DNA of 64,000 bases, from NCBI RefSeq assembly GCF_013170805.1, contig NZ_CP051293.1, forward strand, positions 3,850,001 to 3,914,000, written 5' to 3'. A program made the translations under genes and the position numbers. The notes beneath the pieces are model-generated. The model made no database searches and was not told the DNA's origin. It saw only the letters and a list, made by a program, of their open reading frames with translations. Each line of letters starts with the position of its first letter. The stretch's first letter is position 1. Source of the DNA: Mesorhizobium sp. NZP2077 (GTDB lineage Bacteria; Pseudomonadota; Alphaproteobacteria; Rhizobiales; Rhizobiaceae). Positions 9,058 through 38,084 of the stretch are shown here, piece after piece.

Positions 9058-9945
9058 GTGGAACTCAATACGACGCAGCTGTCGGCACTGACGCGCCTGT
9101 TTTCGTCGACCGTGTTCGGTGAACTGGCGAAGAAGGGGCGATCTCCGCTTTTGATGCGCCTGTTGGGCCACACGGTGGACGTGGCGCCCTGTCAAAGCCA
9201 TGCCACGATCGGCGATGCGTTCGAAGCAGCTTTCGCCGTGCTGAAGACTGCCGGCATGCGCAACGAGTATGTCTACCGTTCGGCACTTACCCAAAAAATA
9301 TTGATGGGCAAGCACTCGCTGCGCACTGCATCCATGCTGAATGAGTTTCGGGCCGGGACGTGCAAGGCTGATCTCGTGATCCTCAATGGGACCGCCACGG
9401 TCTATGAGATCAAGTCGGAGCGGGACTCACTGGCACGGCTGGCGAACCAGGTTCAGAACTACCAGAGGGTCTTCGCGACAGTGAACGTCATCGCGAGCGA
9501 AGATCACATAGAGGGCGTGCGCCAGGTCGTCCCCGGCGAGGTTGGGATCATGTGCCTATCCCGGCGCTATCATGTCTCAGTCGAGCGAGAGGCGATCGAC
9601 CGACCCGATCGCATCTGCCCGGTGACCGTGTTCGAATCGCTCCGGTCGGCAGAGGCGGCGGCAATTCTGAAAGCGCTCGGCTTCGACGTGCCGGCAGTGC
9701 CAAACACACAGCGCCATGGCGTCATGCGCGACCTTTTCGCCAAGCTCGAGCCCGCTCCGCTCCACAGCGAGATGGTGAGCACTCTCAAGCGCACCCGCAG
9801 TCTTGCGTCGCTCAGCGATCTAGTCGATCAGCTCCCGGCGTCACTTCATGCCGCGGCCCTGTCTGTGCCGGTGCGCCGCTCGGATCATGGCCGGCTCGTC
9901 GAAGCCGTGGCGACACCGCTCGATGCGGCGATGGCTTGGGCGTAG
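9058..9945 (+). CDS. sce7726-family protein, PD-(D/E)XK nuclease-like
   Basis: A 295-residue protein starting at GTG after GTGGGGGAAA. The middle shows the PD-(D/E)XK core: Asp105 (KADLVIL), Glu117-x-Lys119 (YEIKS) and Gln131 (NQVQNY), the arrangement of restriction-type nucleases. I recognise the family as sce7726, named for a Sorangium protein and usually encoded directly upstream of an sce7725 protein, exactly as here. The next start is 5 bp downstream, and the third gene is a RES-domain toxin-like enzyme. The activity is unproven; the fold suggests DNA cleavage or nicking within a defence or toxin-antitoxin-like operon. Confidence 0.85.
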   Translation: MELNTTQLSALTRLFSSTVFGELAKKGRSPLLMRLLGHTVDVAPCQSHATIGDAFEAAFAVLKTAGMRNEYVYRSALTQKILMGKHSLRTASMLNEFRAGTCKADLVILNGTATVYEIKSERDSLARLANQVQNYQRVFATVNVIASEDHIEGVRQVVPGEVGIMCLSRRYHVSVEREAIDRPDRICPVTVFESLRSAEAAAILKALGFDVPAVPNTQRHGVMRDLFAKLEPAPLHSEMVSTLKRTRSLASLSDLVDQLPASLHAAALSVPVRRSDHGRLVEAVATPLDAAMAWA

Positions 9946-9950
9946 CGCGT

Positions 9951-10895
9951 ATGTACAATCCTTATTTTCGGGGGAAGCAATTCGAACTGATCACGATCCG
10001 GGAGACGGCCGGGCTGATGGCCGGTGCCGGCTTCGTGCCGATCATCGAGCCGGTGAAGGAAGCCCTGAAGGGCCTCGAGAGGACGCTGCAGACGATCAGC
10101 GATGCCGGAGGTCGAGCGATCGTAATCGTCAATCCCTATCACGGCGACCATCAGGAAGATGGCGTCGGCATAACCAAAGTGCTGCAGGCCGACTATATCG
10201 GCAATGACGCGATCTCTGCTGGCATCCTACTGCGCAGCAACACGACCTTGGCCCAGGCGATAGCCGCCTGTGAAGCTCATAAGGACCACAATCCGACATT
10301 TGTGCATGCTGGGTTCACGTCACAGAAGGCGCTGGCCGAATATCTCGGCGAAGACCTGCCGGCTTCGCAGCATGTGTTCATCGAGGAACACGCGAACACG
10401 CTCTATCGCAAACATTTCGACGGCAGCACGCGCGTTCTCATACGCGATGGCTTCAAGCGTCTAAAAAATGCTGAATATGCGAAGACCCCTGTCGAGGAAT
10501 TCTCCGAGCTACACCTCACTTACAGCAGCGATCTGAACATGGCCGGCTTTGGCGATTTCCTGGTCGTGGGGGATAGCTATTCCGAGAGCGGCGGCCCGGC
10601 CTATGCGGTTGCGATCCACCTCACCTTCATTGATCCCGACAAGGACGACGTGATGTACATCTATCACTTCGTCTCGACATCGAACGACACGCCTACCGAC
10701 CCGGCAGGCAAGTTCGCGCAAGCGCTCAAGAAGCTCATCGACAAGCTCAACACCGGAAACTCCAAGCTGCTTGAGACCGATGCGATCAAGGAGTTTCGCG
10801 ACCTCCATGCGAAGGGCCACTTCCCTGGCCTCGGTCATGTTAAGAAACTCGCGATGAAGCATCATATCGAGACGCTCGCCGGCTATCTGGGCTGA
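9951..10895 (+). CDS. sce7725-family (beta protein) partner
   Basis: A 314-residue protein starting MYNPYFRGKQFELITIRE. The N-terminal YFRGKQFEL, then FVPIIEPVKE and IVIVNPYHGDH, are hallmarks of the sce7725/beta-protein family (named after a phage beta protein). Strand-helix alternation suggests a TIM-barrel-like fold. The family nearly always follows sce7726; function unknown. Here the gap to sce7726 is 5 bp and to the RES gene 8 bp, so all three are one operon. It may act as sensor, antitoxin or structural partner of the nuclease. Confidence 0.85.
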   Translation: MYNPYFRGKQFELITIRETAGLMAGAGFVPIIEPVKEALKGLERTLQTISDAGGRAIVIVNPYHGDHQEDGVGITKVLQADYIGNDAISAGILLRSNTTLAQAIAACEAHKDHNPTFVHAGFTSQKALAEYLGEDLPASQHVFIEEHANTLYRKHFDGSTRVLIRDGFKRLKNAEYAKTPVEEFSELHLTYSSDLNMAGFGDFLVVGDSYSESGGPAYAVAIHLTFIDPDKDDVMYIYHFVSTSNDTPTDPAGKFAQALKKLIDKLNTGNSKLLETDAIKEFRDLHAKGHFPGLGHVKKLAMKHHIETLAGYLG

Positions 10896-10903
10896 GACTG
10901 GAA

Positions 10904-11968
10904 ATGTCCAAACGGCGATGCTGCCCGGAATGCTTCGACGATCGCGGCCTTCGTGAGCAGATCTTCCCATTCCTTGGTCCTGAGCACGGCACCTGCAGTT
11001 TCTGCGGCACGCCCGACGTTGACCTCCTCGAGCCGCTGGCGCTGGCACCCTTTTTCGGGCTGGTCGTTAACGTCTATGAGCGAAGCGAGAACGGCAAGTC
11101 GCTCGCCGAGTGGATGAAGGGGGACTGGCAGCTGTTCTCACATCCAGCTATGGACGTCGCGCACGCCAAGGAGTTGCTCGCCGAGATACTCGACGACGGC
11201 GAGATTGTGCGCGCGTCGTTCGTGCCATCGCCCAGCTACAAAAGCGAAGGGCTGGTGCAGTGGGAGACGCTGCGCGACGAGATGATGTACCGGAATCGTT
11301 GGTTCCTGGACATGAGCCTTGATACTGACCGCTTGCGCCAGCTCCTCGACCATCTCCCGGCCGCAGATCTGCCACGGAAATGGTTTCGCGCCAGGATTCG
11401 CGCCGGCGATGAAATCTATGAAATCGACAAGATGGGCGCGCCACCCAAGCGCCTGGCGTCGCACGGTCGCGCCAATCCGGCAGGCATCCCGTATCTTTAC
11501 CTGGGATCAATGCCAGAGACGGCGGCCGCAGAAATTCGACCCCATACAGGCGAGGTCGCCTGTGTCGCGGACTTCACAATTCCGGAAATCCAGGCTGTCG
11601 ATCTGCGCAATCCGCGCAAGCTTGTGTCTCCCTTCATCCTCGAAGATGCCGGCGCCATCGGCCAGCTGCGCGCAGATCTGCCGTTTCTTGAGCGACTCGG
11701 TGAGGAGCTGACCCGACCCGTGCTGCCGTCGGGCGCCGCGATCGATTACATCCCCAGCCAGTATCTTTGCGAATTCATCAAAAAGAGCGGCTTCGACGGT
11801 GTTGTTTATCGCAGCTCAGTCAGTGACGGCATCAACTTGGCTCTGTTCGACCCCACCAAAGCCCAAGGCGGCGGCGTTTCCATATACAACGTCGACCGAG
11901 TCTCTGTTCAAGTCTCGCAAGCCGTAGAACCAGGCGCGGGCAGGAGAACACGAAGCGGCGACGGATAA
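10904..11968 (+). CDS. RES-domain NAD+ phosphorylase-like protein with zinc N-terminal domain
   Basis: A 354-residue protein. Residues 1-50 hold CCPEC and CSFCG, two knuckles of the HEPN/RES N-terminal domain type 1. The C-terminal half holds a RES fold: KWFRARI (the Arg), GRANPAGIPYLYLG, ETAAAEIRP (the Glu) and YRSSVSDG (the Ser). RES proteins degrade NAD+ by phosphorolysis and act as growth-arresting toxins. There is no small Xre/MbcA-type antitoxin next to it; instead it is the third gene after sce7726-sce7725. I infer that NAD+ depletion is the output of this three-gene operon. Confidence 0.85.
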   Translation: MSKRRCCPECFDDRGLREQIFPFLGPEHGTCSFCGTPDVDLLEPLALAPFFGLVVNVYERSENGKSLAEWMKGDWQLFSHPAMDVAHAKELLAEILDDGEIVRASFVPSPSYKSEGLVQWETLRDEMMYRNRWFLDMSLDTDRLRQLLDHLPAADLPRKWFRARIRAGDEIYEIDKMGAPPKRLASHGRANPAGIPYLYLGSMPETAAAEIRPHTGEVACVADFTIPEIQAVDLRNPRKLVSPFILEDAGAIGQLRADLPFLERLGEELTRPVLPSGAAIDYIPSQYLCEFIKKSGFDGVVYRSSVSDGINLALFDPTKAQGGGVSIYNVDRVSVQVSQAVEPGAGRRTRSGDG

Positions 11969-14386: not shown

Positions 14387-14431
14387 GGCTGGGGAACCTG
14401 GATTCGAACCAGGACTAACGGAGTCAGAGTC
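14387..14431 (-). pseudogene. 3' half of a tRNA-Gln(CTG), 5' half missing
   Basis: The reverse strand reads GACTCTGACTCCG (anticodon arm, CTG), TTAGT, a T arm CCTGGTTCGAATCCAGG, then TTCCCCA and discriminator G, followed by CCT where CCA would be expected. The 5' acceptor strand and D arm are missing; the break lies at the 5' side of the anticodon stem. Same geometry as the tRNA-Glu half at 604-651, consistent with a former integration junction. Confidence 0.75.
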
Positions 14432-14556
14432 GTTCATCATCAGGTCCCGAACGCCTGCGTTCCGCCTTCGTACGAAGGGGTTGTAGCAGGTCGTTCTTGG
14501 CCCATAGCGTTCCGGTAGGTCGCGCATGCCGCGCTGGATACTGATTCAGGCTCACC

Positions 14557-14710
14557 ATGAGCAGATATGACCTCGATCGACTTCGAGTGGCGCGTGATCG
14601 AGCCGCTGCTACCCAACAGCCGAGAGAAGTGCCACGCGTTGACAATCGGCGTGTGCTAAATGGAATCTTCTTCGTTCTGCGCTCCGGCGCGCCATGGAAA
14701 GCCGCTAGTC
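14557..14710 (+). mobile_element. Remnant of an IS5-family transposase
   Basis: Starts MSRYDL; the adjacent frame continues DFEWRVIEPLLPNS; the first frame resumes with VPRVDNRRVLNGIFFVLRSG and APWK, the N-terminus of IS5-type (IS427-like) DDE transposases. At least two frameshifts and loss of everything after about residue 50, including the DDE core. No terminal inverted repeats identified. It is a dead insertion-sequence fragment. Confidence 0.7.
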
Positions 14711-14764: not shown

Positions 14765-15022
14765 TCACTTTCTTGCGTCCGGCTTCCGCATCGCAATGGC
14801 AGGACCGTGGTCGGCAGTAGACGGCAGAAATACCACCCCGGCTTTCTCGAGCGCTGTTCGAACCCTGTCCACTACGTCGAACGCAACCCCCTTTCCGCCA
14901 GCTTCGATCCTGACGATCGTCTGACGGCCAACCCCCGCGCGCTCGGCCAGGTCTTCCTGGCTGAGTTCCAGCAGCGCCCTCGCTACCCGCATCATCCGGA
15001 TGGTATCGGAAAAGGACTCCAT
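14765..15022 (-). CDS. XRE-family helix-turn-helix regulator
   Basis: An 85-residue protein. The core IRMMRVARALLELSQEDLAE, then GVGRQTIVRIEAGGKG, is a standard Cro/C1-type helix-turn-helix (ALLELSQEDLAERAGVGRQT). The C-terminal DRVRTALEKAGVVFLP segment is typical of small single-domain XRE repressors, in which the helix-turn-helix is followed by the phrase I.F.P. It could regulate the island or be an orphan antitoxin; no partner is adjacent. Confidence 0.8.
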   Translation of the reverse strand: MESFSDTIRMMRVARALLELSQEDLAERAGVGRQTIVRIEAGGKGVAFDVVDRVRTALEKAGVVFLPSTADHGPAIAMRKPDARK

Positions 15023-15257
15023 CGGCCAACGAAGCGAGTAGCGAACTTCGTGTCAACAATTGGGACATTATGTACCAAATTATGGACGTAAGGATTCGAA
15101 TCAGGTACATAGTGACCACACCGGGGACGCGATCCCGATCTCACGCCGGAAAGTCGGCGATTCGGGCACTGCGGGTAAGAGCGAGTTAGGGGGCGAGCAG
15201 AAGGTGGCGGACCGCAAATGGACGCGGCCCTATGAGCGATGCGAGAAGAGAGACGTC
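15023..15257. other. Intergenic region upstream of the XRE gene
   Basis: Contains the likely XRE promoter (15040-15090 has TTGGGACATTATGTACC and related AT-rich runs, possibly an operator) and no convincing gene. Confidence 0.35.
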
Positions 15258-15470
15258 ATGCTGCGCTTTGGACCAAACATCGATCTTGATCTGACAGCTT
15301 TCGGGGAGGAAAGAGTCCGGCTTGAGGCTCTGGTCGCCGACCTTTGGCACGTTAGTCTCAACAAGCGCCCGGCGTCGAGCGCCACACGTGATGCGCCGAT
15401 CCTGGAGGAATGGCGTTTGGCGCTTCGCCCGACCCTTTGCCTCACCGGATTGACCACAGGGCATCACTGA
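15258..15470 (+). pseudogene. Truncated DUF6634-like small protein
   Basis: A 70-residue frame: MLRFGPNIDLDLTAFGEE, then APILEEWRLALRPTLCLTGL and TTGHH before a stop. The phrase AP-L-W-P-CL-G-GH matches what I recall of the rhizobial DUF6634 family, which normally continues about 40 residues after GHP. Here it stops at GHH, and a possible continuation (TTGTLFF) is in another frame, suggesting decay. Family assignment is from memory of the motif. Confidence 0.35.
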
Positions 15471-15793
15471 CCGGCCTTCCCAGCTGATACCACCGGGACT
15501 CTGTTCTTCCCAAACCGAGTTGCTCGGAGAACATCCACAGGCCAGACGTCACAATCGCCCGTTGCTGGCCCGGAAGCTTCGGATGTGTCTCGAAGGATTC
15601 GTGAGATGGTGACCGCTCCGCAAACAGGAATCCCGCTCTCCGAACGTCTTTCGTCCGACGCCGACCGGGTCGCAGGCTCCACAGAACTCCAGGACTCCGT
15701 CGGAACATCGGACCAGAAGAACTGCCGATCAGTAGCCGATCGCGACGGTATCGATATGTCGGGGGCCAAGCCCTCGACCGATCGAGGATCCAA
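15471..15793. other. Intergenic region before the metallophosphoesterase cassette
   Basis: About 320 bp without a supported gene; it should contain the promoter of the following cassette. The GAGGATCC just before 15794 includes the ribosome binding site of the first metallophosphoesterase. No clear -35/-10 pair found by eye. Confidence 0.4.
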
Positions 15794-16633
15794 ATGAAAC
15801 TCTGGATCTGGTCCGACCTCCATCTCGAGATGCAGGAAATCGCGCTGCCCTCTGCTGCTCCCGACGGCGTTGATGCGATCGTTTGCGCAGGCGACCTGTC
15901 CTATGCTCCCGATGTCGAGCGACACGCCTTCGACATCGTGCATCGATACGGCGTGCCGGTGATCTTCGTGCCGGGCAATCACGAGTTCTACAGCAATCGC
16001 GGAGCTCGTCCGCCGCGAACGAAGCCTTCGGATCACCGTCTGATGAAACAGGCGGCCGAGGCGTCGAGGTCCTGGGCGCAGCCGTTTCATGTCCTCGACG
16101 ACGACACTGCGGAACTCGGCGGCGTGCGGTTTGTCGGCGGCACGTTGTGGACCGATTTCCGAATGTACTTGGTGAACGAGGTCGGCGTTCGGAGGCGGAT
16201 GCAATCGGCACTCGCTCAATTGGCGGATTTCTCGAGAATCTGGCTTGGCGACGGCGAGCAGCTGTCGCCGCAGGTTATGCTCGGTTTCCACCTGCTGACC
16301 CGCGGATTCATCGAGCGCCAGCTGGCGATCCCGTTCGATGGCAAGACGGTTGTCGTCACGCACCATCTGCCTCACCCGCATTGTACACCTGCGGCTTACG
16401 TCGGCAGGGAAAGCAACTACCTGTTTGCCTGCAGCAAGGAGGCATTCGAAAGTATCCTGACTTCAGACGCGGCGCCGGCACTCTGGGTCTGCGGCCATAC
16501 GCATCACTACTCTGACGTCAAGGTTGGCCGAACGCGGATCGTCTGCAATCCGTTTGGGTACCTTGCGGTCGCCAGCGAGCGCGACAACGATTTTCAGTGG
16601 GACCTCGTGATCGACACGGAGGACCTGACGTGA
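15794..16633 (+). CDS. Calcineurin-type metallophosphoesterase (first of two)
   Basis: A 279-residue single-domain phosphoesterase. Metal ligands in order: Asp8 and His10 (WSDLHLE), Asp34 (CAGDLSY), Asn62-His63-Glu64 (PGNHEFY), His in VVVTHHLPHP and the pair in VCGHTHHYS. This is the complete dinuclear-metal set. Substrate unknown; the small cap suggests nucleotides, phosphoproteins or RNA/DNA ends rather than large structures. It precedes an FtsH-like protease by 121 bp, and a paralogue follows that protease, so the three form a cassette. It lacks the C-terminal capping regions of SbcD/Mre11. Confidence 0.9.
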   Translation: MKLWIWSDLHLEMQEIALPSAAPDGVDAIVCAGDLSYAPDVERHAFDIVHRYGVPVIFVPGNHEFYSNRGARPPRTKPSDHRLMKQAAEASRSWAQPFHVLDDDTAELGGVRFVGGTLWTDFRMYLVNEVGVRRRMQSALAQLADFSRIWLGDGEQLSPQVMLGFHLLTRGFIERQLAIPFDGKTVVVTHHLPHPHCTPAAYVGRESNYLFACSKEAFESILTSDAAPALWVCGHTHHYSDVKVGRTRIVCNPFGYLAVASERDNDFQWDLVIDTEDLT

Positions 16634-16754
16634 AGACCCCGAGTGCCTTGCCCTGCAGGGCGGATCCTCTGCTGCTTCGGACGCCGGCGGCGACTTGGCT
16701 GGAGATGCCGTGCTGTGCCGAGGGCTGTTCAATGCCCTGTGATCGGAGAACGTA

Positions 16755-18869
16755 ATGTCCGGTTCCACGCCGAAGTCGGCTGTCGCCAACAAATCGAACG
16801 TCATCCAGTCTGATCTCCTGGCGAGGGCGTATCTTGATATCCTCGCCCGCCAAGAGGGCGTGAACTCCAGGCCCATGTTGCGAGCTGGGTCTGGCGATCC
16901 GTCCGATCCCGTCGAAATCCTTCTCGACGACCTGATGGACACGCCAGCTGAAGAACGCGTATCGGTCCGTCCCGACCTCGCGGCCGTGGCAGTGCTGACG
17001 GCCCGCGCCGTCGAGGCCGAGCCCGGGTTGACACGGACATTGCGGCGCGGAGCTCCGGTGGTCACCATCGCCACCCATACGCCCGACCGTGTTGCGTCTG
17101 TCCAAAAGGTGATCGAAGTCTGCGCCCTCCCGGACGAGCGTTCCATTGTGACCAACGGCCGCCAATCGAGGCCGGGACAGGACGACGTGCTGATCGTCGC
17201 CAGGGACGGAACCGAAAAGAGCCATAAGCCCGACTCCGGCAACGACTCCGTCGCCGACGCGCTGCATGCGCGTTCGACGATCATCGGCATCGCGCCCGAT
17301 CCACGGCGGCAGCTGCCACGCGACCTGATGCGATCGGCGGAGTTCCATCTGGTCTTGCCGGAAATCGATCAGAGCGCCCTGCTGCTCGTCATCGAGGCAG
17401 TCACGGGCAAGCGGCCGGAGCGATCGATCGATGCAGCGGCCATCCGGCTGCTCGACATCGCCGATCTGGTGCTTGCGTTGCGGCCGGACCGCAGCCCCGA
17501 AGACTGCGTCGTAAGGCTCGAAGATCTCGTCGCGGGGAAGGGAGAGTTCCATTCAGACGGACCAGCGCTCGAGGACCTCGACGGCTACGGAACAGCAAAG
17601 GACTGGGGCATCGAACTGGTCGCCGATTTCGCGGACTACAAAGCAGGGCGCATCAAGTGGGACGAAGTGGATAATCGCGGGCTGCTGCTTTCCGGTCCTC
17701 CGGGCGTAGGCAAGACGAGCTATGCTCGGGCGCTCGCAAAGTCGGCACGTGTGCCGCTCGTCGCGACCAGCGTCGCTGACTGGAGTGCGGCAAGCTACCT
17801 GTCGGGCACGCTACAGGCGATCAAGGATGTTTTCGCACGGGCGCGCCAACTAGCGCCCTGCATCTTGTTCATTGATGAGCTCGATGGCATTTCCGACAGG
17901 GCGCGCTTGAGCGGGGACTATGTCGAGTACTGGTCCCAGATCGTCAATTTGTTCCTGGAGCTGCTGCAGGGCGTCGACGAGCGGCCGGGCGTTGTCGTGA
18001 TAGGGGCAACCAACCATCCCGACATGATCGACCCGGCGGTCAAACGGGCAGGTCGGCTGGATCGTGAGATTGCGATAGCAAGGCCGGACGTGAAGGCGCT
18101 CGCCGGGATTTTTCGCCATCATCTCGGCAACCAGTTGCCAGAAGCCGACATGGTACCCGTCGCCTTGGCCGCGCGGGGCGCAACCGGAGCCGACGTCGAG
18201 GCTTATGTGCGCAGGGCCCGAGGCGCTGCAAGACGCGGACGCCGCGAACTGCAACTCGATGACCTTCTGGCAGAGGTCCGCTCGAACAGGGAGCCTCCCT
18301 CCCGCGAGGAGCGGCGCAGGCTTGCCGTGCACGAGGCAGGCCACGCTGTCGCCGCTACTTTGCTTGGCCGCATGGAGGTCATCGGCGTTTCCATCGGCGA
18401 TTGGGATGGTTTGACCCAAATCGCCGACGTCGACAGCGGCACAAGCCCTGAGCATTGCAACGATATCTTGGTCATGCTGATGGCCGGTCGTGCCGCCGAA
18501 GAGCTGGTGCTCGGCAACCCCTCGGCAGGCGCGGGCGGCGCGCCAGGCTCCGATCTTTCCCACGCCACCGAACTCGCAAAGAAGATGGAGCTGAGGTTCG
18601 GCTTCGGCGAATACGGCCCCGTGTTTCTGCCCGATGGGGCGCATGACCCGCTCACGACAGTTCCGGGACTGTTCATCGCCGTAAAGAACCGCCTGGAACG
18701 TGCGATGGCGGGCGCCGCGGAGTTGCTGGCGAAGAACAGGGCGGTCCTGGATGCAGTTGCGGACGCTCTCGACCAATCGGGTTACCTGTCTGCGGACGAC
18801 GTCTCCCGCCTCGTACGAGAGGCCGATGGTTGCACTGAAGATCATGGCGGGCTGCGGCGATCTGAGTGA
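16755..18869 (+). CDS. Soluble FtsH-like AAA ATPase / M41 zinc metalloprotease
   Basis: A 704-residue protein. Residues about 1-290 are a novel N-terminal region without membrane helices. The AAA domain has Walker A GPPGVGKTS at 314-322, Walker B CILFIDELD and the second region of homology GATNHPDMIDPAVKRAGRLD with its arginine fingers. The protease domain has HEAGH at 526-530 and the third zinc ligand Asp in GAPGSDLSHATELA. It therefore has every catalytic element of FtsH but no transmembrane segment, so it probably acts in the cytosol on soluble substrates. It sits between two metallophosphoesterases. I infer an ATP-driven protease that regulates, or is regulated by, those enzymes. Confidence 0.9.
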   Translation: MSGSTPKSAVANKSNVIQSDLLARAYLDILARQEGVNSRPMLRAGSGDPSDPVEILLDDLMDTPAEERVSVRPDLAAVAVLTARAVEAEPGLTRTLRRGAPVVTIATHTPDRVASVQKVIEVCALPDERSIVTNGRQSRPGQDDVLIVARDGTEKSHKPDSGNDSVADALHARSTIIGIAPDPRRQLPRDLMRSAEFHLVLPEIDQSALLLVIEAVTGKRPERSIDAAAIRLLDIADLVLALRPDRSPEDCVVRLEDLVAGKGEFHSDGPALEDLDGYGTAKDWGIELVADFADYKAGRIKWDEVDNRGLLLSGPPGVGKTSYARALAKSARVPLVATSVADWSAASYLSGTLQAIKDVFARARQLAPCILFIDELDGISDRARLSGDYVEYWSQIVNLFLELLQGVDERPGVVVIGATNHPDMIDPAVKRAGRLDREIAIARPDVKALAGIFRHHLGNQLPEADMVPVALAARGATGADVEAYVRRARGAARRGRRELQLDDLLAEVRSNREPPSREERRRLAVHEAGHAVAATLLGRMEVIGVSIGDWDGLTQIADVDSGTSPEHCNDILVMLMAGRAAEELVLGNPSAGAGGAPGSDLSHATELAKKMELRFGFGEYGPVFLPDGAHDPLTTVPGLFIAVKNRLERAMAGAAELLAKNRAVLDAVADALDQSGYLSADDVSRLVREADGCTEDHGGLRRSE

Positions 18870-18994
18870 AGCAGGGAAGCGAATGACCTCACCGGGCCGG
18901 TCGCGCGTCGATCGGACGGAGGAGATTCGTCAGCGGCTAAGATGTGAATCCTGGCAGGGATCCCCCGCCTGAATGAACCAACGGAACTATTCCT

Positions 18995-19753
18995 ATGAAA
19001 ATCTGGCTGTTTTCCGATCTTCACCTGGAATTTGCCGATCTCCGCCAGCCGCTGACGATCCCGGATGCAGACGTTTGTGTCGTCGCGGGAGATCTTTGTC
19101 GCGCGCCCGCCAACGGCGCTTACTGGTTGGGCAAAAACGTCGTGCCGGCGATGCCTTGCGTATATGTCGCGGGCAACCACGAATTCTATAAAGGCTCGAT
19201 CAAAGAGGGGCTGGAAGACGGGCGCGGGGCGGCCGCCCAGTTCCCGAATGTGCATTTTTTGGAGAACGATTTTGTCGTGATCGACGGCGTTCGGTTCCTC
19301 GGCGCCACGCTTTGGACCGACTTCCAGATTGAGGGACACCCACATGTCGCAATGTTCCATGCTCGCGAGCGCATGAACGACTTCAAGCTGATCGCGGAAC
19401 AGCGCAATCCATGGCGACGTTTCCTGCCGGGGACGGCGTATCGGATGCATCGGGAGTCGCGCAAATTCATCGAAACCACTTTGAAAGCCGATCCGGTCAA
19501 GACCGTCGTGGTCACCCATCACCTGCCGCACGCACGGTCCATCCCTTCGCGCTTCAAGGGTGATTTGCTGAATGCCGCCTTTGCGAGCGACCTATCAAAC
19601 GTGATCGAAGACGGACATCCAGCTTTGTGGGTGCACGGACATACTCACGACAGCTGCGACTATGAGATCGGGAGCACGCGCGTAATCTGCAATCCGTACG
19701 GTTACGACGGCGAAAATAGCGCCTTTGATCCGGCGCTGGTCGTGGGAGTGTAG
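18995..19753 (+). CDS. Calcineurin-type metallophosphoesterase (second of two)
   Basis: A 252-residue paralogue of the first enzyme (MKIWLFSDLHLEF against MKLWIWSDLHLEM). Ligands: Asp8, His10, Asp33 (VAGDLCR), Asn61-His62-Glu63 (AGNHEFY), His in VVVTHHLPHARS and WVHGHTHDS, then CNPYGYDG, as in the first copy's CNPFGYLA. The duplication on both sides of a protease suggests that the pair matters for function, perhaps as a heterodimer or with different substrates. 125 bp after the protease stop. Confidence 0.9.
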   Translation: MKIWLFSDLHLEFADLRQPLTIPDADVCVVAGDLCRAPANGAYWLGKNVVPAMPCVYVAGNHEFYKGSIKEGLEDGRGAAAQFPNVHFLENDFVVIDGVRFLGATLWTDFQIEGHPHVAMFHARERMNDFKLIAEQRNPWRRFLPGTAYRMHRESRKFIETTLKADPVKTVVVTHHLPHARSIPSRFKGDLLNAAFASDLSNVIEDGHPALWVHGHTHDSCDYEIGSTRVICNPYGYDGENSAFDPALVVGV

Positions 19754-29923: not shown

Positions 29924-31687
29924 TTGTACGCAACGTTACATGGGCGGCGCGTGAATCGGAAATCGCGCGAGGACGCGACGGAAATAGGGGGGCGATTGCC
30001 AGCAGCTTGGGAAATTAGCGTCGCCGACACCATTGCGTTGCTCGAAGCGGACTTTCCTGAAATGGCCAGCGCAGTAGCGCGGGGCAGCTACGCGTTATGG
30101 CTCGGCTCAGGCATTTCACTCGACCGCGTTGTTGGCGTTCCTGCCGTCATTGGCCGTGTCATCGAGTATCTGCGGTCACGCTTGGATGCGGGAGATCCGG
30201 CATGTCGATATAACGTTGCCCTCAATCAGGTCCTCGCAAACCTCTCGCTGCCAGAGCGTGAGAGGCTGCACCTTGATTTGCCGATCGACGACTGGCCTGA
30301 GGCGGATCGACGTGCGATCACGTCGCGCTTGGCCGGTTTCTATGCTGAGGTGTTAGAAACGCCTCTGGAAGGGGAAGCGGATCCTGACTTTTTGCTCTGG
30401 ACGGCAGTCGATGTGCCAGGCAGCTTTACCGGCGACGATCCGGACGTCGAACATCTCTGCGTCGTGATCCTGACGCTCGAGGGGGCCTTTCGCGATATCA
30501 CCTCGGCGAACTGGGATTACCTGATCGAGGCAGCTGAGCGAACGTTGATAGGCGCGGTCGGCGCCAAAATCGATGTTTGCATCCGAGCGGTTGATTTCCA
30601 GAACGCGGGCGGCCGCGCGAAGCTTCTCAAATATCATGGCTGTGCGGTTCGGGCGGTTGCTGACGCTGTCGTCTATCGGCCGCTGTTGATCGCGCGCACT
30701 CCCCAGATCACCCAATATGGGGTCAACGTCGCTTACACGGTCATGCGCGACCACCTGACGGCCTTAGTGCAGCAACGCCGCACGCTGATGATCGGCTTCT
30801 CGGCGCAGGACACAGACGTTCAGCAAATATTTGTCCATGGCGCCAACGGTAGTGGTTGGGAATGGAACACGGCGCCCAGTCCTTTCCTCTTTGCCGAGGA
30901 CGCGCTTTCGGGAGGTCAGCGCGGCATCTTGGCTAGCGCTTACGGGGAACAGTATGCCCCAAATCGGCCCGCCATTGAAAAGGCGGCAAGGGTCCGCGCA
31001 TTCGCCAAACCACTGCTGCTCGCGCTACTCATTTCGGTTCTCGAGCTCAAGGCCGCTGCGCTGGCGGACCTAGGACTGCCAGCAGCATGGAATCCTGCCG
31101 AGAGAAACACAGTCATAGAGGGCCTACGGCACATTCGTGATGCGGCGGCAACGGCGGCTGAGCCGGAACGCCTCGCGTTTATTCGCAATCTGATTGCGGC
31201 TATGATGCTGGGGCTCGACCTCTATCATCACGGCAAATCCGACACCGGTCGCTACATTCCGTTGTCATCGGATCCCATCCAGCAAATCGCTGATGTGCCA
31301 GAAACAACGGGTCTCAGGCAGGCGGCCATTGCGCTTGCGCTCCTTGGCAAAGGCGCTGCCGCAGGTGACTGGTCAATTTCCGCCGGCACGGCTACGAGCA
31401 CACCGATCAACCTACAACAGGGGGCGCGCGTCACACGCGTATTCGTCGCGGCCAATGACGATGTGGCCGGAAAAATGATACAAGCAGGCCATATCGATCC
31501 CGACTCCGTTGACACTATCCTGCTGCTGAGTACTTCACCCAAGGCAAGGCAGGCCCGATCGTCGTCGGGGCCAGTGGGGAGGACTGGCAAGATCGGCCTG
31601 CGCGAGATCTGCTTGACCGCGGTGATCGACACTGCAACGGATGCACTCGATTTGATCGACGCCTTCAAGCGGAGCGCGAGCCTGTGA
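29924..31687 (+). CDS. SIR2-like NADase-type defence protein
   Basis: A 587-residue protein (start uncertain: TTG at 29924, GTG at 29951 or a later site). The SIR2-like_2 core has LWLGSGISLDR near 58-68 (NAD loop), TSANWDYLIE near 193 (catalytic Asn/Asp), KYHG near 235 (catalytic His) and MIGFSAQDTDVQQIF near 290. It lacks the Cys4 zinc of deacetylase sirtuins. Proteins of this type deplete NAD+ during phage infection. The C-terminal half (about 340-587) is a mostly helical region without a clear match, probably sensor or partner-binding. It overlaps the next gene by 4 bp. Confidence 0.88.
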   Translation: MYATLHGRRVNRKSREDATEIGGRLPAAWEISVADTIALLEADFPEMASAVARGSYALWLGSGISLDRVVGVPAVIGRVIEYLRSRLDAGDPACRYNVALNQVLANLSLPERERLHLDLPIDDWPEADRRAITSRLAGFYAEVLETPLEGEADPDFLLWTAVDVPGSFTGDDPDVEHLCVVILTLEGAFRDITSANWDYLIEAAERTLIGAVGAKIDVCIRAVDFQNAGGRAKLLKYHGCAVRAVADAVVYRPLLIARTPQITQYGVNVAYTVMRDHLTALVQQRRTLMIGFSAQDTDVQQIFVHGANGSGWEWNTAPSPFLFAEDALSGGQRGILASAYGEQYAPNRPAIEKAARVRAFAKPLLLALLISVLELKAAALADLGLPAAWNPAERNTVIEGLRHIRDAAATAAEPERLAFIRNLIAAMMLGLDLYHHGKSDTGRYIPLSSDPIQQIADVPETTGLRQAAIALALLGKGAAAGDWSISAGTATSTPINLQQGARVTRVFVAANDDVAGKMIQAGHIDPDSVDTILLLSTSPKARQARSSSGPVGRTGKIGLREICLTAVIDTATDALDLIDAFKRSASL

Positions 31688-32235
31688 CCCCACTCGATCG
31701 CGCTATCGCGCTGCTGAAAGACAAAGGCTATCGCACGGTGCAGCAGCCTTTCGGGATTGGTAGCGCAACATACAGCTTCGATGCCGTCCTAACCGCCGAG
31801 CAGTCGCTCGACCTTGTACTGCTCCAGGATACGACGTTGGGTTCGGGGGAGCGCATCCGACGCGAGGTGCTTGCCTTTGGGCGCTCGCTCGACGTGCTCG
31901 GGTCTCGTAGAACGCTGACATTGATCCTTGTCGGACAGCCACTCGAGCCCGCAATCTTGGCATCACTGTCACAGGTATGCCGTGTCCTTCCGGTTGGACC
32001 ACTAGAGGCCGGCGATGCACGGATGCGCGATTGTCTGGCCGTACTGCTCCCACTTGAACTGCCCGACGCTGCGGATATGCAAGGTGACTGGGGCAGCGAA
32101 GTTCGGCGTCGCCTTTCGGCGGAAGAAGTGCGCGCAGCGACCAGCTACCTGTCGGCTGCGGAACAAGGTGAGGCCGGAGTACGCTTGGAATTACGCAAGC
32201 GGGTCGAGCGTGCCCTGTCGGGGGCATTGTCATGA
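31684..32235 (+). CDS. Small middle protein of the SIR2 operon
   Basis: A 183-residue protein starting at GTG overlapping the SIR2 stop (GTGA) and ending with ATGA overlap to the ATPase. It is alpha/beta (SLDLVLLQDT, TLTLILVGQP) with a helical C-terminus (RRRLSAEEVRAATSYLSAAE). No named family recognised. Position between an effector and an SMC-like ATPase recalls the middle component of ABC-three-component (ABC-3C) systems, but the sequence gives no direct proof. Probably links the sensor ATPase to the SIR2 effector. Confidence 0.7.
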   Translation: MTPLDRAIALLKDKGYRTVQQPFGIGSATYSFDAVLTAEQSLDLVLLQDTTLGSGERIRREVLAFGRSLDVLGSRRTLTLILVGQPLEPAILASLSQVCRVLPVGPLEAGDARMRDCLAVLLPLELPDAADMQGDWGSEVRRRLSAEEVRAATSYLSAAEQGEAGVRLELRKRVERALSGALS

Positions 32236-34646
32236 CGTACCAGCTGACCGAGCTCGTCGTCAGCAACTTTCGCAGCATCAAGGGTACGCTAACGATCCCG
32301 CTCGATGCTCCGATCGTTCTCGTTCACGGCCCGAATGGCGTCGGCAAGACCAGCATCGCAACCGCCATCGAACTTGCCCTGACGGGTGACGTAGGGGGCC
32401 TAAGGCGGTCCGACGAGAAGGTTCAGAACCATCTCGTCAATCGCGATGCGTTGGAGGCAGCCATTGTGTTGCGGATGACTGGCGGACCCAAGTCGGAGAC
32501 GAACATATCGATCCGCGACGGCCTCATTCGCGGAACGCCTATTCTCGACGACGATGGCCGGATCTTTTTCACGGACCGCTGCTATTTGTCTCAATCCACT
32601 CTCGGTCGGCTGCTGGATATCTATCAAGCGCCAACATCGCGCGATCCGTCTAACACGCCATTGACGAGCTTTGTGAAGAAGCTGCTGGGGCTCGACCAGC
32701 TCGAAGCACTCATCGACGGAGTGCACCCGGCCGGCCACAAGGCGCGAATGTCCAAGCTCAGCGCTGATTTCGATCGCGCCGATCAACTCGAAGGGCGATT
32801 GCAGGGCGAACAGCGCGAAATCGATGCGCTACAGCGCAGCCAAAATGCTGAAATCGCCCGGTTGAAAGCGGAATTCGAGCAGCTTCGCAAGACTCTCGAG
32901 TTGCCCGAAGATTTGTCCGCCGCCGCTGCAATGCTCGCCAAGAGCGAGGATCCCGAACTCGTAGCGCGACATGAAGCGCGTGTGAGCGGCGTGACGTCGC
33001 TTCAGTTTCAATGGTCGAGCTTCACGTCGAAGGAAGCGCAGGAGGATCGCGCATCTCTTGAAACTGAAGAGGCTGACGCCGCGCGGGCTCTGGAAAGTTA
33101 TAGTGCAGGGCCGGGCCGCCGGCTCGCCACCTCCATTTCAAGCATTCGGCCGATCTTTCCCGATTCGGCCGACCCCGAGCGGACCGATCCGGAAGAGGCG
33201 CGCATCGGTGCGATCCGATTGGTCGATCGCGAAATCGTGCGACTCGATGGGCTGCTGTCATCGGCCGCTGCCGCGAGCCAGTCGATCAGCGTCAGGGATC
33301 AGTCGATCAGTCAGCAGCAGGCCCGGCTGAAGCTGTTGAACGAGCAGATCGCCGATATCGCCGGAGATTCGGCCGGGCTTGGACAGGCGCTGGCGGCGTT
33401 GCTGCCGCATGTCACCGATGATGTCTGTCCGGTCTGCGATCGGGCCTTCAATGAGGTGTCCGAGATTAGGTTGCGGACCCACTTGTCGCAGGAAGTGGCC
33501 CGACTGATTGGACAGTCCGAGAAGCTCAATTCGCTCATTGCGGAACGCCAACAGGTCCAGACGCGGCTTGCAGGGTTCGAGCGAAGCCGCAGCGCCGAAA
33601 CCGCGCGCGTGATCACACCTATAGATGCAACCACGTACCAGCAGCGGCTGGCGACGCTGCGCACTGCCAAGGGCGAACTCGAAGCCCTTGCAGTGGAGAC
33701 CGTACAGGGAACTGGGATCCGCAACCGTCACGCGACTGCAGCAAGCAAGGTCGCCCAGTTGCGCTTGCGCGATGCAACGAGCGCAGAAATTCGGAGCACG
33801 CTGTCGACTCTGGCGGAAACGATTGCCGAGCCGCCGATCGGCGAGGCCGAGACAACGCAGGATGCCTTGTCCAGACTGATCTTTGCGACCGAAACCGCAC
33901 TCAAGACGGCTATCGCCCTGCAGGCTGATCGCAAAACCGCAGCGGAGACCATCGCGCGTCTGCTGGCACTTGCGTCTGAAAAGACCGAGCGTGATGCCCA
34001 GACGGCCAGGCGAACCCAGAGGTTGGCTCAACTGACTGCGGCGCAGCGCGCGGTGAAGCGTGAGCGAGATCTCGCGAGCAATCTTGGCCGCGCCGCGACT
34101 GAAGCGCGAAGTACTATCATCGGCCGTGTCTTCAATGAGCGACTGAATGCGATCTGGCGTGACCTGTTCGTTCGTCTCGCGCCAAACGAACCGTTCGTGC
34201 CCGCCTTCATGCTCCCTACATCGGGTGAGAAGACCGTCAACGCCATGCTAGAAACAGTGCACCGCGAAGGGGGTAGCTATGGCAGGCCCGGCGCGATGCT
34301 CAGTGCGGGCAATCTCAACACAGCAGCGCTTACGCTGTTCCTGGCCCTGCATCTGTCGGTGAAGCCAGAGCTACCATGGCTGCTCCTCGACGATCCGGTC
34401 CAGTCGATGGACGAACTCCACGTCGCTCAGTTCGCGGCTTTGCTGCGCACGCTCGCCAAGCGTGAAAAGCGGCAGCTGATCATCGCTATTCATGAGCGTC
34501 CATTGTTCGAATATCTGTCGCTGGAACTGAGCCCTGCGTTCGTGGGGGACAAATTGATCACGGTAGAGGTCAGCAAGTCGCCTGAAGGATCGACGCTTTA
34601 CAGAACAAATGTCGTCGGTTTCGAGCCCGATCGATTGGTCGCATAG
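32232..34646 (+). CDS. Rad50/RecF-like AAA ATPase with zinc-hook motif
   Basis: An 804-residue protein. N-terminal half-ATPase: VVSNFRSIKGTL then Walker A GPNGVGKTS near 33-41. Two coiled-coil stretches (LEGRLQGEQREIDALQRSQN onward, and about 410-620) flank a Rad50-type zinc hook, CPVC at 399-402. The C-terminal half has a signature-like MLSAGNLNTAALTLF and Walker B LLLDDPVQSMD near 716-726, then a His-containing IAIHER switch. It should dimerise on DNA and act as sensor for the SIR2 effector. Last gene of a coupled operon. Confidence 0.9.
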   Translation: MTYQLTELVVSNFRSIKGTLTIPLDAPIVLVHGPNGVGKTSIATAIELALTGDVGGLRRSDEKVQNHLVNRDALEAAIVLRMTGGPKSETNISIRDGLIRGTPILDDDGRIFFTDRCYLSQSTLGRLLDIYQAPTSRDPSNTPLTSFVKKLLGLDQLEALIDGVHPAGHKARMSKLSADFDRADQLEGRLQGEQREIDALQRSQNAEIARLKAEFEQLRKTLELPEDLSAAAAMLAKSEDPELVARHEARVSGVTSLQFQWSSFTSKEAQEDRASLETEEADAARALESYSAGPGRRLATSISSIRPIFPDSADPERTDPEEARIGAIRLVDREIVRLDGLLSSAAAASQSISVRDQSISQQQARLKLLNEQIADIAGDSAGLGQALAALLPHVTDDVCPVCDRAFNEVSEIRLRTHLSQEVARLIGQSEKLNSLIAERQQVQTRLAGFERSRSAETARVITPIDATTYQQRLATLRTAKGELEALAVETVQGTGIRNRHATAASKVAQLRLRDATSAEIRSTLSTLAETIAEPPIGEAETTQDALSRLIFATETALKTAIALQADRKTAAETIARLLALASEKTERDAQTARRTQRLAQLTAAQRAVKRERDLASNLGRAATEARSTIIGRVFNERLNAIWRDLFVRLAPNEPFVPAFMLPTSGEKTVNAMLETVHREGGSYGRPGAMLSAGNLNTAALTLFLALHLSVKPELPWLLLDDPVQSMDELHVAQFAALLRTLAKREKRQLIIAIHERPLFEYLSLELSPAFVGDKLITVEVSKSPEGSTLYRTNVVGFEPDRLVA

Positions 34647-36214: not shown

Positions 36215-36407
36215 AGTGTTGCCCCCGAACCCTCGTGACGGGCCTTGCCCAGCCCCCTCACGAGTATTCGAATATTGTCGAAAGCCGTGGATAGCAACGG
36301 AAATGCCGTTCATTAGTGAACATCGGGTTCGATTAAGCCGATAGGTCAGTCTTTCATAAACCTCTTCTGCTATTCCCGTTGTTTTCGGGGACTTGGATGT
36401 AGCGGAA
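36215..36407. promoter_or_regulatory. Divergent promoter region of the J-domain and HNH-RecQ genes
   Basis: About 190 bp separate the preferred starts and must hold both promoters. An AT-rich core (36340-36380, TCATAAACCTCTTCTG) is plausible for the rightward promoter. No operator pattern seen. Confidence 0.4.
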
Positions 36408-38084
36408 ATGGATCAACCGATTGCCACAGATCCGTGGCGCGAGATACGACTTCAAGTTCTCAAGCGCGACAACTACCGCTGCGTCTCGTGCTCGACCCCG
36501 GTGAAATCGTCGGAAGCCGACATCCATCATCTGCTGCCCAAATCGATGGGCGGGACGGACGAACTCTCGAATCTAGTCACCCTTTGCGACGGCTGCCATG
36601 CCGCCCATCATCCGAATCTGGCCGGCGGCCTTGCAAGGCGGGTTATCGAGAGATGGGCAGTCCGGCTGGCCCGCTGGTTGGATACCGATGGCCAGGTTTC
36701 CGAAGGCGTCGGCAATTTCGGCCCGGCTCTCCGCCTATTCGGATTGGATCGCTTCCGGCAAGGCCAATTGCCGATCGTGCTGGCGGCGCTATCCGGAAAA
36801 TCGATCCTGGTGGTCAGCCCAACCGGATCAGGCAAGACCCTCTGCTTCCAACTGCCTGCCGTGCTCCGCCGCGGCCTGACCATGGTCGTCAGCCCTCTCA
36901 AGACTCTGATGTCGGAGCAGGTGTCAGATCTACTCGCCAGGAAAATTCCGGCCACCTTCGTAAACAGTGATTTGAACGCCGAAGAGAAGCAAACCCGGTT
37001 TTCCCATTTGGAACGGGGCGCGATCAAATTGCTGTATCTGGCTCCCGAGCGTTTTTTCGTCCGGAGCGAGGACGAGCGGGCACGGCTGAAGCAGACGAAG
37101 CCATCATTTATTGTCGTCGACGAAGCCCATTGCGTCGATCAGTGGGGCCGGGACTTCCGGCGCGAATACGGCCGCCTCAAGGAAGTCCGCGAAAAGCTGG
37201 GCGGCCCGCCGGTCTTGGCATTCACCGCTACCGCGGGGCGGGAGATGCAGCAGCGCATCCTGGCATCGCTGGGCCTCGAGGACGCCGAAGTTTTCGTTCG
37301 AGACGTTGACAGACCGAATATCGCGTTGCTCCGGTGGCGATGCTCGGTCGAAAAACGTGCGGAGGAAATCGCCTCTCTTCTGCGGTTGCCGCAGGTCCGA
37401 GGACAGAAGGCCATGGTATTCGTGCCGTCGACGAAGGTCGGCGAGGAACTGCAGGCTGCACTACGCAATCTCGGATTGGAGGTGCCCTTCTACCATTCAA
37501 GGCTGGGCAACGCGTGGGAACGCCAGGAACTCGTCAAGCGGTTCCTTGGACAAAGCAAGCCGCCCGTTGACCAGATCATCTGCACGAATGCCTTTGGAAT
37601 GGGTCTCGATGTCCCGAAGGTGCGCCTCGTGATCCACTGGCAGCAATCAGCCTCGGTTGAAGACCAGCTACAGGAATTCGGGCGTGCCGGGAGGGACGGG
37701 AAGCCCTCCGTGGCGGTGATGTTCCACAATGGCTCGAGTATCGGCCGCGACATTTCGAGACTGCGTTTCATGGCCGAGAAGACAGTCGAGTCAGCGCAGG
37801 TTTCCACGTTTGACCGGCAGCAGATGCTGGAGCAGCGTTATCACCAGATCGACCAGGTCAGCGAACTGATGAGAACCCGGTCCTGCATGAGGGCGGCAAT
37901 CTCCGAATATTTTCAGGGACCGAAATCCACCCGACGTCCGAACCTCTCCGTCAGAATTCTGGATTGGGCGTTCGGCGCCAAGTCGAAGACCGGGCATTTC
38001 CGGGCCTGCTGTGATCACTGCGATAAAGCGGAGATCAGACGGAGAGGGCAGATGGGATACGTGTCCAGGATTCTCACTCCATGA
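36408..38084 (+). CDS. HNH nuclease-RecQ helicase fusion
   Basis: A 558-residue protein. Residues about 12-66 are an HNH domain (CVSCSTPV, DIHHLLPKSMGG, LSNLVTLCDGCHAAHH). Then a RecQ-type helicase: Walker A SPTGSGKT at about 137-144, DEAHC near 238, TATAG, and motif VI QEFGRAGRDG. The end carries RecQ-like zinc cysteines (TRSCMRAAISEYF, CCDHCD). There is no HRDC or long winged helix, so it is shorter than housekeeping RecQ (about 610 residues) despite the added nuclease. It should unwind and cut DNA 3' to 5'. The start at 36408 is preferred over TTG at 36393. Confidence 0.93.
   Translation: MDQPIATDPWREIRLQVLKRDNYRCVSCSTPVKSSEADIHHLLPKSMGGTDELSNLVTLCDGCHAAHHPNLAGGLARRVIERWAVRLARWLDTDGQVSEGVGNFGPALRLFGLDRFRQGQLPIVLAALSGKSILVVSPTGSGKTLCFQLPAVLRRGLTMVVSPLKTLMSEQVSDLLARKIPATFVNSDLNAEEKQTRFSHLERGAIKLLYLAPERFFVRSEDERARLKQTKPSFIVVDEAHCVDQWGRDFRREYGRLKEVREKLGGPPVLAFTATAGREMQQRILASLGLEDAEVFVRDVDRPNIALLRWRCSVEKRAEEIASLLRLPQVRGQKAMVFVPSTKVGEELQAALRNLGLEVPFYHSRLGNAWERQELVKRFLGQSKPPVDQIICTNAFGMGLDVPKVRLVIHWQQSASVEDQLQEFGRAGRDGKPSVAVMFHNGSSIGRDISRLRFMAEKTVESAQVSTFDRQQMLEQRYHQIDQVSELMRTRSCMRAAISEYFQGPKSTRRPNLSVRILDWAFGAKSKTGHFRACCDHCDKAEIRRRGQMGYVSRILTP

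Follow-up and report, generated by a model that had tools for sequence, protein, structure and literature searches.

A soluble AAA-M41 protease between two calcineurin-like phosphoesterases: a candidate mobile conflict system of alphaproteobacteria

Introduction

Why would a bacterium that has an FtsH-type gene of its own carry another AAA-M41 protease, apparently soluble, between two phosphoesterase genes, and what might the three proteins do together? The question is raised by a cassette in the window, by which we mean the whole stretch of 64,000 nucleotides of Mesorhizobium sp. NZP2077 analyzed here (contig NZ_CP051293.1, positions 3,850,001 to 3,914,000; G000:C1:3850001-3914000 in our numbering), where a predicted ATP-dependent protease is flanked by two calcineurin-like metallophosphoesterases (MPEs). 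We propose, at a probability of roughly 0.47, that the cassette represents, in compact form, an alphaproteobacterial conflict system that is modular and horizontally mobile and most likely targets phages or plasmids; in this system an AAA+ protease with two tiers would control an MPE as effector. What is shown here is the architecture of the cassette, its catalytic residues, its close same-strand linkage, its recurrence across clades, its mobile setting and its defense neighbors.

Architecture of the cassette

The three genes, co-oriented and separated by gaps of 121 bp (MPE1 to protease) and 125 bp (protease to MPE2), lie as the initial annotation described them (Table 1). Pfam matches above cut-off were obtained for each product: AAA (110.4 bits) and Peptidase_M41 (61.9 bits) in the protease, and Metallophos in the two MPEs (49.6 and 49.7 bits).

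Table 1. Features of the cassette, its upstream region and related loci (window positions unless a locus is named)
Feature	Position	Strand	Size and basis
MPE1, calcineurin-like metallophosphoesterase, fast-evolving copy, complete metal site	15794..16633	+	279 aa; Pfam PF00149, residue check, tree
Predicted soluble ATP-dependent protease (AAA-M41)	16755..18869	+	704 aa; Pfam, models and fold comparison, profile comparison, residue check
MPE2, calcineurin-like metallophosphoesterase, conserved copy, complete metal site	18995..19753	+	252 aa; Pfam PF00149, residue check, tree
Small Xre/Cro-type HTH protein, possible regulator upstream of the cassette	14765..15022	-	85 aa; Pfam HTH_3, 36.3 bits, cut-off 23
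DUF6634-like open reading frame, tentative, C-terminus perhaps shortened	15060..15470	+	136 aa; BLAST DUF6634 cluster and custom HMM
45-bp stretch identical to the 3' part of a tRNA-Gln gene, possible attachment-site scar	14387..14431	-	identity to L236 213-257
Degenerate MPE paralogue clade beside the protease	L023 5678-6697, L160 8002-9231, L162 9992-10972, L163 10503-11540, L164 10143-11090		tree, residues

What kind of protease is this? Its domains are, in order, a degenerate AAA-like domain (residues ~70-264), an active AAA domain (~303-512) and an M41 zinc peptidase domain (~516-690), and the full set of catalytic residues credited to it at the outset is indeed present: the Walker A and B motifs, HEAGH at 526-530 and, further downstream, D600. 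Walker A, Walker B and HExxH with its D are kept in all 67 unsplit homologues counted, the window included, a count from which the split proteases L007 and L026 are excluded. The AAA and M41 parts form two adjacent open reading frames (ORFs) in L026, L027 and L207-L209 (several Rhizobiaceae, Mesorhizobium-genus loci), and thus the fusion of the two is not obligatory.

The N-terminal domain lacks the P-loop pattern in 67 of 67 proteases by pattern check. When structure models of this domain alone were compared by fold, 47 of the 50 listed matches were AAA+ proteins by title; hhalign of the domain to the family's own AAA gave an E of 2e-4 at a probability of 46%, and a profile of the domain found no convincing match among PDB sequences (best E 0.042). 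On this modest fold and profile evidence, it resembles a degenerate AAA+ domain that lacks the P-loop, and not a member of a known housekeeping family. A periplasmic FtsH domain was considered for the region and rejected on hydropathy, the AAA-like model and the fold matches. The best 19-residue Kyte-Doolittle mean in the window protease is 1.57 and the median over 69 rows is 1.58; the highest value among these rows, 2.08 at about residue 503 in three Rhizobiaceae-type rows, probably lies inside M41 judging by its position. In other words, as first annotated, the protease is expected to lack a membrane helix and to be soluble.

Is it then an FtsH? The earlier label "FtsH-like" is apt for the AAA-M41 core, where AAA is followed by M41 with HExxH and the conserved D, and which matches NCBIfam FtsH_fam at 190.4 bits. 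The score is, however, far under the family cut-off of 600 bits, and the label does not cover a protein that has two AAA-type domains and lacks a membrane part: the membrane helices and the periplasmic domain at the N-terminus of housekeeping FtsH have no counterpart in a protease in which no 19-residue window exceeds 1.57 and in which the N-terminal domain, an extra and degenerate one, models as AAA-like. Additionally, the window protease is accessory and mobile, whereas the genome has its own FtsH-type gene elsewhere (G000:C1:1275072-1276172, M41 at 238.9 bits).

The nearest precedent is the FtsH ternary system described among predicted conflict systems by Kaur et al. (2020; PMC7159879), in which an inactive N-terminal AAA domain without a P-loop is followed by an active FtsH-type AAA domain, and whose described partners, in deltaproteobacteria, actinobacteria and planctomycetes, are MoxR and vWA proteins. 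The dead then live FtsH-type AAA domains, the predicted conflict role and the presence of a second AAA+ ATPase (MoxR there) are shared; the section of PMC7159879 on that system, however, names no M41 on the FtsH component and no calcineurin-like enzyme, whereas in the window family M41 is fused or next door and the partners are an MPE, DUF6634 and sometimes a Lon-like AAA+ ATPase. Neither MoxR nor vWA was seen in the Pfam-scanned window genes or among the recognized recurrent neighbors, most clusters of which are unidentified, and no vWA or MoxR profile search was made. IetAS, an anti-phage system composed of an AAA ATPase and a subtilisin-like protease, likewise couples AAA+ with proteolysis, and the window AAA domain matches IetA models at 97 bits; here, however, the match does not extend beyond the AAA domain (NCBIfam IteA scores 94 bits, the cut-off being 510), the protease is a fused M41 metallopeptidase and the flanking genes encode MPEs, not subtilases. 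The searches made, in agreement with the initial annotation, found no named system with this layout. In the open-licence literature we found no description of an MPE joined with M41/FtsH in defense, and none with DUF6634; a term search of PMC10853773, PMC12839542 and PMC8649781 found nothing on the MPE-M41 combination.

The phosphoesterases and their second copies

Both window MPEs have a complete metal site (DxH, D, GNH, H, GHxH) within a PF00149 match, keep all eight metal or active-site positions checked, are 40% identical to each other and have the CNP-x-GY motif in common, which bears out their description as paralogues with complete metal sites and a similar C-terminal motif; both look active. 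The eight positions are kept in 68 of 76 aligned MPEs; of the eight exceptions, five are degenerate copies in which several metal residues are gone, two differ at a single position and one is truncated where its contig ends.

Comparison of the MPE profile with PDB sequences gave only three matches, all weak (6unc, SbcD 7dog and LMO2642 2xmo), and these therefore suggest no substrate. Four MPEs match PDC-S10, a single-protein PADLOC candidate, at 30 to 55 bits; the window MPEs match its model PDLC04908, which has no curated cut-off, at 30.4 and 54.8 bits over the MPE front half only. We know of no partner genes of PDC-S10, and nothing in the open-licence literature was found to name it. Mycobacteriophage Gp48, described in PMC12287305 as a calcineurin-type MPE that has phosphodiesterase activity and disrupts genomic DNA integrity, resembles the window MPEs by description and differs from them in being phage-borne.

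Measured against the nearest relative, L029 of Mesorhizobium sp. Root102, dN/dS is 0.26 for MPE1, 0.19 for the protease and 0.12 for MPE2, and thus all three genes look maintained. The corresponding dS values (0.71, 0.18 and 0.78) are unequal, and this suggests that parts have been exchanged and that the cassette genes are a mosaic. The closest named relatives of the window protease are from Mesorhizobium, and among the matches listed for 61 genus genomes, our own included, a cassette-wide match occurs in one other genome, G028.

Are two MPEs the rule? The order MPE-protease-MPE is found in the window and recurs in L029, L030 (where the first MPE is cut by a contig end), L162 and L164 (genus g88), while L160 and L163, also of genus g88, have two MPEs upstream of the protease. 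On a tree of 79 MPE rows, made by a quick method and with many weak forks, MPE1 of the Mesorhizobium group forms one long-branch clade beside the MPE2 clade (SH-aLRT 88 only), and the second copies of L160 and L162-L164, together with the L023 upstream MPE of Methylorubrum extorquens CM4, form another clade apart from MPE1; since MPE1 and the degenerate copies fall in separate clades, this tree implies two or more independent origins of second copies. Judging by the lost residues, the degenerate clade looks like a set of dead partner subunits. When four of the degenerate copies were compared with Pfam, three matched no family and one matched below cut-off.

Linkage of phosphoesterase and protease

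How general is the pairing? A pattern scan of genome contigs, together with the protease alignment, gave at least 80 loci, which are a sample, and 53 of them (L029-L080 and L102) were counted; the 27 excluded loci (L081-L101 and L103-L108) hold distant AAA-M41 or AAA proteins, and none has an MPE match. With sequences of this MPE family as the queries, to which the count is confined, all 20 MPE hits lie within 600 bp of the protease and on its strand, in 18 of the 53 loci, and none lies elsewhere in the 733 kb of flank, of which the 600-bp margins make up ~9%. In several loci MPE and protease overlap or are separated by gaps of a few bases. A single MPE hit is found in 16 of the 18 linked loci, and this, with the separate clades of MPE1 and the degenerate copies, led us to reject the two-MPE layout as the general form. 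Two of the 18, L059 and L074, hold MPE remnants only. L059 was a candidate MPE-protease fusion and was rejected, as the ORF there is an extended one that takes in an MPE remnant; an early iterative MPE profile, which had picked up extended protease ORFs, was replaced by a clean one.

On a protease tree of 67 rows, built by a quick method and with several long branches, MPE presence (states assigned by hand, remnants scored as present) changes at least 10 times. Protease groups that have the MPE include members of Rhizobium/Agrobacterium, Devosia, Afipia/Nitrobacter, Mesorhizobium, Bosea and Methylorubrum. There is none in one 16-row Methylobacterium/Methylorubrum clade, in which row L050 has less than 1 kb upstream. 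Plasmid records of Bosea, Bradyrhizobium barranii, Rhizobium acidisoli and M. extorquens CM4 have an MPE annotated beside the protease; those of Azospirillum, Agrobacterium and Rhizobium sp. TH2 have none annotated within 7 kb, and the unannotated AM1 record has no MPE match. The linkage is real but facultative.

These counts bear on several readings of the locus. One is that the genes are neighbors without a functional partnership, mere passengers of an island, as loci without an MPE and the unequal divergence of the cassette genes might suggest. We consider this very improbable, given that every MPE hit is adjacent and co-oriented, that several loci have overlaps or few-base gaps, and that the pairing recurs in distant clades and near a second AAA+ family.

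Of the 53 protease loci, 29 have no MPE hit although their flanks extend at least 1 kb on both sides (in six further loci the flank is too short to judge). This absence is the strongest argument against a strict partnership, and it leaves room for a reversal of roles in which the protease would be the effector, degrading invader or host proteins, and the MPE would hydrolyze a nucleotide signal or product and so keep the protease off. In its favor, the protease exists in loci without an MPE hit, and its catalytic residues are kept in every row counted; MPE homologues also stand apart from the protease, including in 156 phage records, as signal-destroying enzymes might, and in NCBIfam there are weak hits to cAMP phosphodiesterase, at 22.8 and 16.3 bits where the cut-off is 225. 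Set against this, the MPE is also found beside a Lon-like AAA+ ATPase whose matches, in the four proteins scanned, end at the Lon AAA module, and the MPE is therefore not tied to proteolysis. We regard the reversal as unlikely.

For the initial annotation, the outcome is mixed. Its idea of a conserved partnership is upheld for protease and MPE, whose linkage recurs, and not for the pair of MPEs, which is no conserved core. Its model, in which the protease degrades one MPE to free the other, cannot be the general mechanism because most linked loci have a single MPE, because more than half of the protease loci have none and because the MPE is alternatively found near a Lon-like AAA+; it might still apply in the lineage with degenerate second MPEs.

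Alternative partners of the phosphoesterase

In an evenly drawn, order-wide sample of 397 genomes, the window's own included, 15 have the N-terminal domain of the protease and 47 have a member of the MPE2 family. Forty MPE regions were fetched from the better-scoring places (at least one, in G358, was passed over): nine have the protease, 14 have the Lon-like AAA+ ATPase (three on the opposite strand) and one of these has both, such that an AAA+ partner is present in 22 of 40, DUF6634 only in two more and none of these in 16. The Lon-like family was itself defined from recurrent neighbors in these regions, and the matches of the four proteins scanned (71.8-95.6 bits, cut-off 608) cover only the Lon AAA module. 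The loci with an MPE near the Lon-like AAA+, often with DUF6634, are L163, L165, L166, L168, L171, L179-L182, L187, L189, L192, L193 and L198, and tandem MPE pairs occur in L165, L180, L181 and L182. We see these loci as a sister module of the protease cassette.

Four Mesorhizobium-genus regions, L206-L209, chosen because their MPE resembles MPE2 in DNA, contain, one after another, DUF6634, Lon-like AAA, AAA (in three of the regions), M41 and MPE, with AAA and M41 as separate ORFs (Pfam: L207, L206); a fifth, L210, has the protease without an MPE in a layout like that of L038. In L029 the order is DUF6634-Lon-AAA-DUF6634-MPE-protease-MPE. No match to the Lon-like AAA was found in window 9001-29500. 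The DUF6634-like ORF of the window (Table 1) has no Pfam match at E 0.01, and the custom HMM is not clean, as it also matched an antisense ORF at 15442-15708.

In L174, L177, L178 and L183 the MPE adjoins an ORF that, from its start, we take to resemble SRAP; the MPEs of L177 and L178 have Ala in place of the first metal Asp. The MPE family also occurs in phage records, 53 of the 156 being Vibrio phages, at ~44% identity to MPE2 at best, with Rhizobium phage RHph_N34 (L211) and Brevundimonas phage Kikimora (L212) as examples; these relatives possibly serve counter-defense or nucleotide metabolism. The cassette as a phage gene set was rejected: 99 phage records match the protease and none covers 80% of it.

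Mobility and defense-gene surroundings

How does the cassette travel? In 15 of 62 loci, clusters of TnsA and TnsB lie no more than ~5.5 kb from the protease; a few of these loci are near-copies (e.g. L040 and L067), and Pfam confirmed TnsA and TniB in one example each. Tn7 cargo as the window's own vehicle gained no support, with no TnsA, TnsB or TnsC match in window 9001-29500. At 1.36 kb upstream of MPE1, the window has a tRNA-Gln fragment (Table 1) whose complete gene, tRNA-Gln(ctg), ARAGORN places at L236 185-258 (L236 being G000:C1:4872000-4872600). This fragment is probably an integration scar. Since no second copy of at least 16 of its 45 bases was found in the window, the element boundary is not defined. 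Another fragment copy lies in L235, where no tRNA was found, ~16.6 kb from the intact tRNA-Gln, and with fragments in both places tRNA-Gln seems to be a repeated integration target. Between the window fragment and the cassette, a short stretch at 14541-14697 that is found in many genus genomes is probably an insertion-sequence remnant.

Could mobility itself be the point? The cassette might be a stabilizing or addiction module of Tn7-like and other mobile elements, selected for retention, with the MPE as toxin and the protease or DUF6634 as control. The TnsA/TnsB clusters would suit such a role, as would Xre and MbcA/ParS-type antitoxin-like genes nearby; the small HTH ORF upstream of the cassette belongs to a loose BLAST cluster seen in 18 of 62 loci at varying positions. 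The many unrelated defense labels in the sampled flanks speak against it, and a large protease would, to our knowledge, be unusual in an addiction module. We judge this reading quite unlikely.

The defense labels come from a PADLOC scan (E 1e-25) of 108 of the 279 eligible flank ORFs (at least 200 aa, 53 loci), in which 37 families were matched. The 25 families shown, each in one ORF, amount to about eleven labels: Hachiman HamB, QatA, QatD, DRT2, PrrC, dCTPase, IetA, a phospholipase effector, a type IV restriction enzyme, PDC-S36 and DndA/SspA, the last of which may be a generic cysteine desulfurase. As a control, 207 ORFs were taken from 20 spaced regions on the chromosome that carries the window; the 110 of them that were scanned matched one family, mad3, in 5 ORFs. 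Label variety differs greatly between the two sets, the number of ORFs only by a factor of about two for the families shown, and the comparison sets one control genome against many test genomes. Additionally, CBASS genes lie ~3 kb from an AAA-M41/MPE pair with a 4-bp overlap, a KwaB-like gene ~1.5 kb from another MPE and TIR genes near a third; near the cassette in the window are GmrSD, a methyltransferase/helicase cluster and sce7725/sce7726 genes.

These surroundings also bear on a plainer reading, that of a stress or proteostasis accessory made of a spare soluble AAA protease and metabolic phosphatases, with no conflict system involved. M41 and MPE families are broad and mostly housekeeping, and the MPE subfamily has no substrate assignment. 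We nevertheless find this reading decidedly unlikely, as the spread is patchy (the N-terminal domain in 15 of the 397 order genomes, a close match over nearly the full length in 2 of 61 relatives, counting the genome of the window itself) and mobile elements and defense labels occur in the flanks. A conflict or defense role, as the initial annotation implied, is plausible.

Other window genes may be recorded here. At 9058-11968, sce7726 and sce7725 family proteins are followed by a RES-domain protein; at 29924-34646, a SIR2-like protein, a 183-aa ORF and an SMC-like AAA_23 ATPase in a row resemble a further defense locus; and a single ORF at 36393-38084 has HNH nuclease and DEAD-box helicase domains.

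Proposed mechanism and outlook

How might such a conflict system work? From these sequences we infer ring assembly, a defense function, the MPE as effector, the direction of control and the type of substrate. The protease would form a soluble ATP-driven ring made up of a catalytically dead upper AAA tier, likely used for sensing or as an adaptor, a second AAA tier that is active, and an M41 peptidase chamber, and it would act on the co-encoded calcineurin-like phosphodiesterase. At rest, the MPE would be kept inactive by the AAA machine or by a small partner, either a protein of the DUF6634 type or a second MPE, which in some lineages is degenerate. A phage- or plasmid-derived cue would then engage the N-terminal tier, the inhibitor would be unfolded and degraded, and the released MPE would hydrolyze nucleic acid or nucleotides, stopping the infection; the role of M41 may be to destroy the inhibitor, or the MPE itself. 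We favor the MPE as effector because it is common to the M41-type and Lon-type modules and because PMC7159879 reports a calcineurin-superfamily domain as the commonest effector in the GAP1-N1 group of predicted conflict systems, and the AAA machine as gate because the dead N-terminal tier is the more divergent AAA tier.

A fuller version of the proposal is doubtful, if by no means far-fetched: that this is an undescribed mobile immune system in which a dead-AAA/live-AAA proteolytic ring controls a phosphodiesterase, the motor can be swapped (M41 or Lon-like without a protease), a second MPE has been recruited more than once and is catalytically dead in one lineage, and regulated proteolysis triggers an effector that cleaves nucleotides or nucleic acid. 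If true, a protease family usually regarded as membrane-bound and housekeeping would have been converted into an immune motor that is soluble and mobile, and the calcineurin-like phosphoesterases would gain a regulated AAA+ partner. The second MPE, with its repeated recruitment and its dead lineage, would then offer a handle on how the effector is controlled.

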